64,000 nucleotides of DNA from Alistipes sp. (lineage in GTDB: Bacteria; Bacteroidota; Bacteroidia; Bacteroidales; Rikenellaceae), in contig JAFQHI010000006.1 in assembly GCA_017398045.1 (NCBI GenBank), forward strand, positions 115,782-179,781, in the 5' to 3' direction. A program made the translations under genes and the position numbers. Each line of letters opens with the position of its first letter. Positions within the stretch are counted from its first letter, which is position 1. Below, piece by piece: positions 28,871-36,676 of this stretch. Below the pieces are notes generated by a model that worked only from the letters and a program-made list of their open reading frames with translations, was not told the origin of the DNA and did not search any database.

Positions 28871-29064
28871 CCTATTTTTACCTTCGCTTTGCGGAGTCTT
28901 CCGACCCGCGCCGCTCGGTTTAGATAGGCTACGCCTCGGCAATCCGCTAAACTTCGTTTAGAAAAATGGAGGTAAAAGGGGCTTCGTGAATAAATTCCCG
29001 GCCCCTTTTACCTCCATTTTCTCCAAATAAATTTGGGATTGCGCTCGGCTTGCACTATCTTTGT
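28871..29064 (+). repeat. 194-bp promoter cassette, copy A
   Basis: This block equals 32977-33170 in length with only 7 differences that I count (about 96 % identity). It contains a 20-bp perfect hairpin (28963-28982 with 29001-29020), starting AAAATGGAGG and ending CCTCCATTTT, followed by a complete promoter. It sits immediately upstream of the glycosyltransferase gene. Confidence 0.9.
29032..29063 (+). promoter_or_regulatory. Promoter of the glycosyltransferase operon
   Basis: TTTG (29032-29035), 20 bases, TATCTTTG (29056-29063). The ATG follows after 8 bases, so the transcript would have almost no leader. Confidence 0.82.
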
Positions 29065-32743: not shown

Positions 32744-33062
32744 CGCTCGGTTTAGATAGGCTGCGCCTCGGCAATCCGCTAAACTTCGGAGGCCGTTGGG
32801 GAATTCTTTGATTCCGTCGCTGGACATGCATCGAATCGGCCTATCTTTACCTTCGCTTTGCGGAGTCTTCCGACCCGCGCCGCTCGGTTTAGATAGGCTG
32901 CGCCTCGGCAATCCGCTAAACTTCGGAGGCCGTTGGGGAATTCTTTGATTCCGTCGCTGGACATGCATCGAATCGGCCTATCTTTACCTTCGCTCCGCGG
33001 AGTCTTCCGACCCGCACCGCTCGGTTTAGATAGGCTGCGCCTCGGCAATCCACTAAACTTCG
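32744..33062. repeat. 137-bp tandem repeat, about 2.3 copies
   Basis: Unit 1 (32744-32880) and unit 2 (32881-33017) differ at only three positions that I count, and a partial third unit runs to 33062. Each unit starts CGCTCGGTTTAGATAGGC and contains GGACATGCATCG. A related single unit without the middle part is at 28871-28960. Short open frames in it repeat with the unit and are not genes. Confidence 0.9.
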
Positions 33063-33170
33063 TTTAGAAAAATGGAGGTAAAAGGAGCTTCGTGAATAAA
33101 TTCCCGGCCCCTTTTACCTCCATTTTCTCCAAATAAATTTGGGATTGCGCTCGGCTTGCACTATCTTTGT
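32977..33170 (+). repeat. 194-bp promoter cassette, copy B
   Basis: Same block as 28871-29064 with 7 differences. The hairpin arms are 33069-33088 and 33107-33126 with one mismatch. Its first third belongs to the last tandem-repeat unit. It drives dnaX. Confidence 0.9.
33138..33169 (+). promoter_or_regulatory. Promoter of dnaX
   Basis: TTTG (33138-33141), 20 bases, TATCTTTG (33162-33169); ATG after 8 bases. Identical to the glycosyltransferase promoter. Confidence 0.83.
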
Positions 33171-33177
33171 TCCCCAT

Positions 33178-34968
33178 ATGAGCGAGTTTATTGTCAGTGC
33201 AAGAAAGTATCGTCCCGCGACGTTTCAATCCGTGGTGGGACAAAAGCACATCACCTCGACGCTGAAAAATGCCATCGAGCGTGGTCAGTTGGCCCATGCC
33301 TACCTCTTCTGCGGCCCGCGCGGTGTGGGCAAGACCACCTGCGCCCGTATCTTCGCCAAGGCGATTAACTGCCTCTCACCCCACGGTGCCGAGGCCTGCA
33401 ACGAGTGCGAATCGTGTCGCTCGTTTGGGGAGGGTCGCTCGCTCAATATCCACGAGCTGGATGCCGCCTCGAACAACTCGGTGGAGGATATCCGCACCCT
33501 GATTGAGCAGGTGCGCATCATCCCCCAGGTGGGTCGCTACTCGGTCTTCATCATCGACGAGGTTCATATGCTCTCGGCGGCCGCCTTCAACGCCTTCCTT
33601 AAGACCCTTGAAGAGCCGCCCCAGCACGCCATCTTCATCCTCGCCACGACCGAGAAACACAAAATCATCCCCACGATTTTGTCGCGTTGCCAGATTTACG
33701 ATTTCAACCGCATCCGTGTCGAAGACTCGGTCGAGTACCTGAAATACATCGCCTCCGAGGAGGGCATCACGGCCGACGAGGAGTCGCTGAACCTCATCGC
33801 CCAGAAGGCCGACGGCGGTATGCGCGACGCCCTCTCAATGTTCGACAAGGCCGTCTCGTTCTGTGGCACAACCCTCGACTACCACTCCGTGGCCCAGACC
33901 CTCAATGTGCTGGACTACGACACCTACTTCCGCATGACCGAGCTACTCACCGCAGGCAACTACACCGAGGCTCTTGTGGCCTTCGACGAGGTGCTTTCGA
34001 AGGGTTTCTCGGGGCAGACCTTTATGGCGGGTCTGAATCGCCACCTGCGCGACTTGCTGATGGCTCGTCAGCCCGATACGCTGAAGTTGATAGAGATGAC
34101 CGGAACGCTCATGGAGCGATACCGCAAGCAGGCCGCCTCCACCGAGGCGGAGTTCCTCTTCGGCGCAATTTCGATACTCACCGAATTGGACGGAAAGATA
34201 CGACAGGCATCAAACGGTCGTCTGTTGGTTGAGCTGGGTCTGATGAAAATCGCAAGACTCGGCCAAAAAAAAAAGATAGATGACGAGGAGCTGTACGAAC
34301 TGCCCGCATTAGAGCAGCGCACGGTGCGCACAGCACCCACCGCCCCGCAGGTAACGCCCGCAGCACCTCAACCGACGGTCGCCCCGCCAACCACCGAGCC
34401 GCAACCCCGCATCGAGCCGGCACAAGCGACCACTGCAACAACGCCCGCGACCGAAGCTGCGGCACAACACACCGAGGCTCCGGCTCCGCAACCCGAACCG
34501 CGCCCCGTACATCGCACCGCGACCATCGGGCTTTCGCTCTCGGCACTGTTGGCCGAGGAGGAGCGACCCAAGGAGGAGCAGACGGCCGAGGAGAGCATAG
34601 GTCCGGTCATTGACCCGCAGGCAGAGGAGAAGTTGCGCAACAACCGAGCAGCCATCCTTGCGATGGTACGCACCGAGCGACCCCGCTTCTATCCCTCGTT
34701 CGAAAGGCTGGAGGTGGCAGGAAACGAACTGCAAATCTCGGTGCCGAGCCGTGAGTTGCACGACGAGATTCAGCGCAACCGCACAGCCCTGCTGATGCAG
34801 ATAGCACGCATCGCCAAGGTCGAGGGGTTGATTGAGCTGAAGGTCGATATCAACGAGGAGCTGCGAGCCGAGAAGCCCATCAAACTCGAGGACCGCCTGC
34901 GACACCTCACGGAGAAGAACCCGAAACTTGTCGCCCTGCGCAAGGCCCTCGATATGGAGGTTGAGTAA
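33178..34968 (+). CDS. dnaX: DNA polymerase III subunit gamma/tau
   Basis: The ATG at 33178 (MSEFIVSARKYRPATF) gives 596 residues; a longer frame to 33139 would lie in the promoter. Domain I has Walker A GPRGVGKTT near residue 42-50, a zinc site (CLSPHGAEACNECESC) and Walker B IIDEVHML. The sensor ILSRCQIYDFNRI follows. Domain III ends near residue 360. Then comes a Pro/Thr/Ala/Glu-rich linker (about 375-470) and a conserved C-terminal tau domain. Tau links the clamp loader to the polymerase and helicase. A ten-A run at codons 363-366 could give a short gamma form. Identity firm. Confidence 0.96.
   Translation: MSEFIVSARKYRPATFQSVVGQKHITSTLKNAIERGQLAHAYLFCGPRGVGKTTCARIFAKAINCLSPHGAEACNECESCRSFGEGRSLNIHELDAASNNSVEDIRTLIEQVRIIPQVGRYSVFIIDEVHMLSAAAFNAFLKTLEEPPQHAIFILATTEKHKIIPTILSRCQIYDFNRIRVEDSVEYLKYIASEEGITADEESLNLIAQKADGGMRDALSMFDKAVSFCGTTLDYHSVAQTLNVLDYDTYFRMTELLTAGNYTEALVAFDEVLSKGFSGQTFMAGLNRHLRDLLMARQPDTLKLIEMTGTLMERYRKQAASTEAEFLFGAISILTELDGKIRQASNGRLLVELGLMKIARLGQKKKIDDEELYELPALEQRTVRTAPTAPQVTPAAPQPTVAPPTTEPQPRIEPAQATTATTPATEAAAQHTEAPAPQPEPRPVHRTATIGLSLSALLAEEERPKEEQTAEESIGPVIDPQAEEKLRNNRAAILAMVRTERPRFYPSFERLEVAGNELQISVPSRELHDEIQRNRTALLMQIARIAKVEGLIELKVDINEELRAEKPIKLEDRLRHLTEKNPKLVALRKALDMEVE
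34265..34275 (+). promoter_or_regulatory. Candidate programmed frameshift / slippage site in dnaX
   Basis: Ten A residues then G, read in frame as CAA AAA AAA AAG. This contains the slippery heptamer A AAA AAG in the phase used by E. coli dnaX. A -1 ribosomal shift, or one extra A in the mRNA, gives GAT AGA TGA and stops after two codons; one fewer A gives an immediate TAG. The product would be about 366-368 residues, ending at the domain III boundary. Confidence 0.7.
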
Positions 34969-35008
34969 ATTAAGAATTAAAAATTGAGAATTAAAAATAA
35001 TAATTACA
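34969..35008. repeat. AT-rich spacer repeat between dnaX and tyrS
   Basis: TTAAGAATTAAAAATTGAG-type repeats fill the 42-base gap. Similar tracts occur at 1-20 and 6351-6390. Confidence 0.55.
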
Positions 35009-35010
35009 TA

Positions 35011-36312
35011 ATGGCTACGAAGAATTTTATCGAAGAGCTTGAGTGGCGCGGCATGATTCATACCATCATGCCCGGAGCCAAGGAGCAGTTGGAGAAGGAG
35101 CTGACGACGGCCTACCTGGGCATCGACCCCACGGCCGATTCGTTGCACATCGGACACCTCGTCGGTGTGATGATTTTGAAACATTTCCAGATGTGCGGTC
35201 ACCGTCCGCTGGCCCTCATCGGTGGTGCTACGGGTATGATTGGCGACCCCTCGGGTAAGTCGCAGGAGCGCAACCTGCTGGACGAGCAGACCCTGCGTCA
35301 CAACCAGGAGGCCATCAAGGCCCAGCTGGCCAAACTGCTCGATTTCGACTCGGATGCCCCCAATGCTGCCCGTCTGGTGAACAACTACGACTGGATGAAG
35401 GAGTTCTCGTTCCTCGACTTCGCTCGCGATATCGGTAAGTGCATCACGGTCAACTACATGATGGCCAAGGATTCGGTGAAGAAGCGTTTCAACGGCGAGG
35501 GCGAGGGTATGTCCTTCACGGAGTTTACCTACCAGCTCTTGCAGGGTTACGACTTCCTGCATCTGTACCAGACGATGAACTGCAAAATCCAGCTCGGCGG
35601 TGCCGACCAGTGGGGTAACATCACCACCGGTACGGAGTTGATTCGTCGCAAGCTCGGCTCCGAGGCCGAGGCCTTTGCCATCACATGCCCGCTTATCACG
35701 AAGGCCGACGGTACGAAGTTCGGCAAGACCGAGAGCGGCAACGTATGGCTCTCGCCCCGCTACACCTCGCCCTATAAGTTCTACCAGTTCTGGCTCAACG
35801 TAAGCGACGAGGATGCCAAGCGTTACATCAAGATTTTCACCCTCCTGGACCGCGAGACGATTGATTCTTTGACAAAGGAGCATGAAGAGGCTCCCCACCT
35901 GCGTGTGCTGCAAAAGCGTCTGGCCGAGGAGATTACGACGATGATTCACTCGCGCGAGGAGTACGAGAAGGCGGTCGAGGCGTCGCAGATTCTCTTTGGT
36001 GGCGCAACCTCCGAGGCCCTCAAGAAGCTCGACGAAGAGACCCTGTTGCAGGTCTTCGAGGGCGTCCCCCAATTCCGCATCGAGCGTGCCGCGCTCGAAA
36101 ACCTCCCCTTCATCGAGCTGGCTGCCGGTGCAACGCAGATTTTCCCCTCGAAGGGTGAGTGCCGCAAGATGGTGCAGGGCGGTGGTGTGTCGCTCAACAA
36201 GGAGAAGGTGACCGACCCGCAACGTCCGACCACGGAGGAGGACCTCATTGCCGGTAAGTATCTGCTCGTACAGCGCGGTAAGAAGAACTACTACCTGGTG
36301 ATTGTCGAGTAA
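35011..36312 (+). CDS. tyrS: Tyrosyl-tRNA synthetase
   Basis: Starting at 35011 ([15 protein letters not shown]) gives 433 residues; nine further in-frame codons upstream fall in the AT-rich repeat. Class I signatures are visible: HIGHLVGV near residue 49-56 and [12 protein letters not shown] (KMSKS equivalent) near residue 236-247. The tyrosine-binding [28 protein letters not shown] is intact. A C-terminal S4 domain ([19 protein letters not shown]) completes it. It charges tRNA-Tyr. It follows dnaX by 42 bases and precedes folB by 10, probably one transcript. Identity firm. Confidence 0.97.
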
Positions 36313-36322
36313 TCCGCACCAC

Positions 36323-36676
36323 ATGAAGTACACCATCACACTCGAAAGGATGGAGTTCCGAGCCTATCACGGTTGCTACGACCTCGAACAGCAGGTCGGC
36401 AACCGTTTTACGGTCGATTTGCAACTTGTGACCGAGTTGGGTCGTGTAGCCGAGGAGGATAGCGTGGAGATTGCCGTCAACTACCTCACCGTCTATGAGG
36501 TGGTGCGCGAAGTGATGAGCCATACGCAACGCACCATCGAACGGGTGGCGATGAACATTATCGAGGCCGTCAAGGAGCGATTTCCGCAGATTGAGTGTGT
36601 TGTATGTACGGTGGCCAAGCTGGCCCCGCCGCTGGGAGGAAAACTGCACAGCGTCAGCGTGACCCTCCAAGATTAA
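36323..36676 (+). CDS. folB: Dihydroneopterin aldolase
   Basis: From the ATG at 36323 (MKYTITLERMEFRAYHGCYDLEQQVGN) the protein has 117 residues, the normal FolB length; the in-frame extension to 36302 overlaps the end of tyrS. Family marks are FRAYHGCYDLEQQVGNRFTVDL, NYLTVYEVVREVM with the catalytic region, and VAKLAPPLGG near the end. It converts dihydroneopterin to hydroxymethyl-dihydropterin in folate synthesis. The first enzyme of that pathway, folE, lies at 46390-46998. Confidence 0.92.
   Translation: MKYTITLERMEFRAYHGCYDLEQQVGNRFTVDLQLVTELGRVAEEDSVEIAVNYLTVYEVVREVMSHTQRTIERVAMNIIEAVKERFPQIECVVCTVAKLAPPLGGKLHSVSVTLQD

Follow-up and report, generated by a model that had tools for sequence, protein, structure and literature searches.

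Whether a single dnaX gene yields one DNA polymerase III subunit or two is the question raised by the dnaX locus of Alistipes sp., which lies within the 64,000-nucleotide stretch of contig JAFQHI010000006.1 analysed here (the window). The original prediction described a tract of ten A followed by G in this gene, placed it at the end of domain III with a stop codon close behind it in each alternative frame, and proposed two DnaX forms.

An A10 run at the end of domain III

Reading of the bases at 34265-34275 confirmed the tract, the base after the run being G (34275), and both alternative-frame stops were found. The features of the locus are:

33178-34968, + strand: dnaX, encoding DNA polymerase III subunit tau, the full-length zero-frame product (596-aa ORF)
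33883-34260, + strand: domain III, residues 236-361 (PF12169)
34265-34274, + strand: A10 run, candidate slippage site, codons 363-366 (CAA AAA AAA AAG), read from the bases
34277-34279, + strand: TAG reached after loss of one A, 2 nt past the run (predicted gamma, 366 aa)
34281-34283, + strand: TGA reached after gain of one A or a -1 shift, 6 nt past the run (predicted gamma, 368 aa)
34276-34965, + strand: tau-only part, a proline/alanine-rich linker and C-terminal domain missing from gamma (translation)

The gene was identified by TIGR02397 at 427.9 bits in a search of its own genome, with further matches to NF011531 (over its cut-off), PF13177 and PF22608. PF12169 matches at 24.2 bits, slightly below its curated cut-off of 24.4, and the match stops at residue 361, as predicted for the end of domain III; the run therefore separates the region common to gamma and tau from the region unique to tau. 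The second frame of six split relatives described below matches 108-121 residues at the C-terminus of the tau-only part. The genome of 2,358,920 bases has two A10 sites, one on each strand, and dnaX holds one of them; runs of A9 or longer give 24 rows corresponding to 22 distinct places.

Just upstream of dnaX, a 20-nt inverted repeat spans 33069-33126, with arms 95% complementary and 18 nt apart. At 28965-29018 the 15-base core of this repeat is found again as an inverted pair, and the two are perhaps copies of a small repeat element or a terminator.

Conservation of the run in Alistipes and its kin

We read dnaX from 150 of the 200 family genomes searched, the window's own included, and added 19 family loci from a set of 80 named-relative loci; 12 of these 169 loci were dropped, the stretch around the run being identical to that of another, which left 157 distinct genes. 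A run of at least nine A is present in 156 of the 157, as A10 in 129, A11 in 16, A9 in eight, A12 in two and A13 in one, counts that represent related genes and not independent trials. Run length changes 13 times on the family tree. Among the 156 run-bearing genes, 150 form a single ORF (in some cases over the sequence retrieved) and six are split.

Codon usage in these genes disfavours both codons that build the run. Upstream of it, the pooled 150 related dnaX genes use AAA 759 times and AAG 1524 times, and CAA 445 times and CAG 1628 times, giving an expectation of ~2.4% for CAA AAA AAA from codon choice alone. The codons flanking the run vary among family genes, as do the amino acids next to it, whereas the run itself persists. 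The alignment proposed earlier as a check on codon bias shows a run unbroken by AAG codons in all relatives read save one, and conservation beyond codon bias (156/157 against ~2.4%) is a mark by which Thermus-type slippage dnaX genes are recognised. The exception, L198 (genome G079), retains only A4 and represents a natural loss; all six further loci read from that genus (g16) carry A10.

Stop codons in the two other frames

All 150 single-ORF family genes encounter a stop within 21 nt past the run when one A is added (at 0 nt in 97) and within 38 nt when one A is lost. A stop within 6 nt for the added A together with one within 20 nt for the lost A is found in 140 of the 150, compared, among frame-matched positions of the same genes, with 1.3% on the upstream side (42,131 positions) and 2.0% on the downstream side (27,530 positions). 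Taken alone, the lost-A stop is no more than 20 nt away in 147 of the 150 genes, compared with 20-25% of control positions. Flanking bases differ among the related genes, and the triplet next to the run is TGA in 63 of the 157, TAA in 21 and TAG in 15. The window gene itself combines at least nine A inside the tau ORF with near stops in both non-zero frames, two marks of the Thermus type.

Relatives with the reading frame broken at the run

Six dnaX genes from the same genus are split at the run, the zero frame stopping at 365-371 aa and the tau C-terminus continuing in another frame (blastp E 9e-18 to 7e-40). Four of them (L040-L043), which form one group of four species, need one A more for tau, and the other two, L039 (A12) and L044 (A11), need one A fewer. 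On a FastTree phylogeny of 155 proteins, two partial proteins having been left out, these states require at least three frame changes. Since tau is needed, the cells carrying split genes probably make both DnaX lengths. The breaks in L039 and L044 could be homopolymer errors, each coming from a single draft assembly; an assembly error is unlikely for the group of four. The two-ORF form, in which tau requires a frame change, accounts for six of 157 family genes and 29 of the 90 phylum loci considered next, and the window gene, a single ORF, stands outside it.

The run across Bacteroidota

The phylum sample comprised 90 loci from 33 families, the window's own included, drawn from a search of 148 genomes; it is not random, consisting of the 30 best matches and 60 loci picked to cover families. 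A run of at least nine A near the tau/gamma border occurs in 65 of these 90 loci and in 22 of the 33 families (the window's family included), and 25 loci have none. The 25 loci together with L198 indicate that the site is not indispensable. The run-bearing loci divide into 36 single ORFs, 28 that need +1 and one (L293) that needs -1. In the single ORFs, an added A meets a stop within 27 nt in 36/36 and a lost A within 61 nt in 35, the stop of the remaining locus being 258 nt away. One-contig genomes (G256, G294, G204, G274, G262 and G251) supply six of the 29 two-ORF loci. The run starts at codon phase 1 in 29 loci, phase 2 in 25 and phase 0 in 11.

Bacteroidaceae/Prevotellaceae-type loci (L076-L135) show a different feature at this position. 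In 50 of the 57 loci read, a G-x-x-P motif replaces the A-run no more than ~50 nt after domain III, encoded as GGGC, a loop of 3-4 and GCCC (once GTCC). Its Gly codon is GGG in 50/50, compared with 93 of 851 upstream Gly codons, and its Pro codon is CCC or CCT in 50/50, with a variable residue between Gly and Pro; these counts were taken from the protein motif and not from a DNA pattern requiring GGG. The GGGC/GCCC pair may perhaps form an RNA hairpin. A longer stem beyond this core was unsupported, the first outer pair forming in 38/50 and pairs 2-7 in 5-23/50. An Rfam search of six such loci matched nothing except one tRNA. Among the seven loci without the motif, L106 and L125 have A-runs.

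Programmed transcriptional slippage as the probable basis of a short DnaX

We consider, with a probability of about 0.75, that the dnaX A10 run serves for programmed transcriptional slippage of the Thermus kind and that tau and gamma are both made. RNA polymerase would slip while transcribing the run, so that some dnaX mRNAs gain or lose one A. Messages unchanged, or changed by three, would encode tau (596 aa); the remainder would reach a stop 2-6 nt past the run and yield a gamma-like protein of 366-368 aa (~40 kDa), retaining the ATPase and domain III and lacking the tau-only part, with a predicted C-terminus of ...GQKKKDR or ...GQKKR. Slippage in the cell, and with it the amount and role of gamma, is what we infer from the run, its position and conservation, the stops in both frames and the frame-broken relatives. 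The two DnaX forms of the original prediction gain support from the kept run and kept stops in relatives, and production of gamma is a probable consequence. Transfer RNAs for lysine with UUU and CUU anticodons are both present (loci of 30 of 41 tRNA matches scanned), and a review links both isoacceptors to slippage in Thermus (PMC5009743).

The same short protein could arise from uniform transcripts through a ribosomal -1 shift, either on the heptamer A AAA AAG, which E. coli uses, or on the run itself; ribosome sliding is another known effect of poly-A. The window carries this heptamer in frame, and a shift there reaches the TGA at 34281. An in-frame copy also occurs in 24 of the 65 run-bearing phylum loci, but in only 11 of 150 family genes, so that it is not a conserved element of the family. 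Shine-Dalgarno (SD)-like sequence within 30 nt upstream is absent from all 150 family genes, window included (six words searched), compared with 717 of 4,938 control stretches; Bacteroidia ribosomes reportedly fail to recognise SD sequences, rpsU of Flavobacteriales being a special case (PMC9976891). Downstream folding shows no excess structure (z of -0.41 over 59 genes compared with -0.39 over 60 control stretches), the window's own value of -0.38 indicates no stable stem-loop, and an Rfam search of 33000-36500 in the window returned no match. The lost-A stop is also kept, which favours slippage, being needed by slippage and not by a -1 ribosomal shift. Slippage is further favoured because the homopolymer is kept rather than the heptamer, the phase of the run is free and the frame flips both ways, opposite frame directions being the basis for calling slippage in PMC3711429. 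This two-direction argument is the weakest point of the case: of 29 two-ORF phylum loci, 28 need +1, a change that a -1 ribosomal shift would equally supply, which weighs slippage down and raises the ribosomal alternative, and the loci needing -1 are L039, L044 and L293 only, each a single assembly. On balance we regard ribosomal frameshifting as an improbable source of gamma; some shifting may occur all the same. Where the original prediction left both routes open, slippage is now preferred, and the E. coli-type signals proved not to be conserved.

A still smaller chance attaches to the run being an accident of codon choice in a lysine-rich linker, or a tract made phase-variable by replication slippage, without a programmed product. 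A lysine-rich stretch is indeed kept in the protein and run length varies among species, with the changes on the tree given above. Against this stand the low expectation from codon choice, the persistence of the run beside changing amino acids and the joint stops, found in 140 of 150 genes but in 1-2% of control positions. Well-studied bacteria cannot do without dnaX, and an off state lacking any frame correction would therefore be expected to disappear; four species (L040-L043) nevertheless carry it.

A second A10 at coaBC

The other A10 of the genome lies in coaBC:

L239:1501-1510 (G000:C4:149181-149190), - strand: A10 in coaBC (TIGR00521, 403 aa), codons 188-191, from the genome scan

The run falls at the CoaC/CoaB border, the Flavoprotein domain ending at residue 185 and the DFP domain starting at 193. 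Among 50 same-genus loci, made up of the 30 best matches and 20 chosen from the rest (116 of 121 genomes had a match), 38 carry at least nine A, in 34 of the 38 as A10. The run is absent in 12, with seven changes on the tree, and in 28 of 29 other phylum loci, which were best matches from the 141 of 148 genomes with a match. In the 38 run-bearing loci, an added A meets a stop within 12 nt in 37 and a lost A within 26 nt in 38. The control, based on the first 26 loci, places 8.9% of 7,455 positions within 54 and 26 nt, the widest limits observed, and is weaker than that for dnaX. The site is accordingly a lead and not a result. We tentatively entertain, at somewhat less than even odds, that A10 is a reusable slippage cassette in Alistipes and that the coaBC run yields free CoaC, of about 190 residues, beside fused CoaBC; if true, coaBC would be, after dnaX, another bifunctional housekeeping gene for which a short product is programmed. 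Titles and abstract openings, together with a word search in PMC3711429, gave no report of frameshifting or slippage for coaBC or phosphopantothenoylcysteine, and titles and abstract openings on transcriptional slippage and Bacteroides mentioned neither the dnaX nor the coaBC site.

Comparison with known systems

A 2012 review holds that most bacteria beyond enterobacteria and Thermus keep no dnaX frameshift signature and may lack gamma (PMC3290774). In contrast, a slippage-type run is found at the tau/gamma border in 22 of 33 Bacteroidota families and in nearly every gene of the window's family (156/157). If the run works, gamma would be common in a major gut phylum. The frame flips, by which the DNA of one species encodes tau directly and that of its relatives gamma, would provide a natural experiment on the function of gamma.

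The in-frame A AAA AAG of the window and its stop within three codons resemble E. coli dnaX, from which the gene differs in having no SD-like stimulator, no stable stem-loop and a heptamer mostly not kept in relatives, E. coli using -1 ribosomal frameshifting. The two-ORF dnaX genes found with GeneTack also contain A10 runs for which slippage was proposed, 17 genes from 12 genera being described and nine genes with ten As reported (Antonov et al. 2013, PMC3711429); unlike these, the window gene is one ORF and gives tau by standard decoding. Apart from that paper, no report of a dnaX site in Bacteroidetes, Flavobacterium or Alistipes appeared among the titles and abstract openings of freely accessible papers.

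The closest likeness is to Thermus thermophilus dnaX, where transcriptional slippage occurs at A9 and gamma is made from altered mRNAs (PMC5009743, PMC1088944). A further mark of the Thermus type is an mRNA population of variable run length in which gamma makes up about half of the product. As in Thermus, tau is a single ORF with a homopolymeric A-run and near stops in both frames, and gamma corresponds to its N-terminal part. The window differs in its phylum, in a run of A10 rather than A9 and in slippage that is predicted from the bases; its run directly follows domain III, whereas that of Thermus lies seven-eighths through the coding sequence (PMC1088944). The kind of site is already known from Thermus and two-ORF dnaX genes, and the 2013 supplement may already list some of the species; added here are near-fixation in a family, the single-ORF A10 form, flips within one genus and breadth across the phylum.
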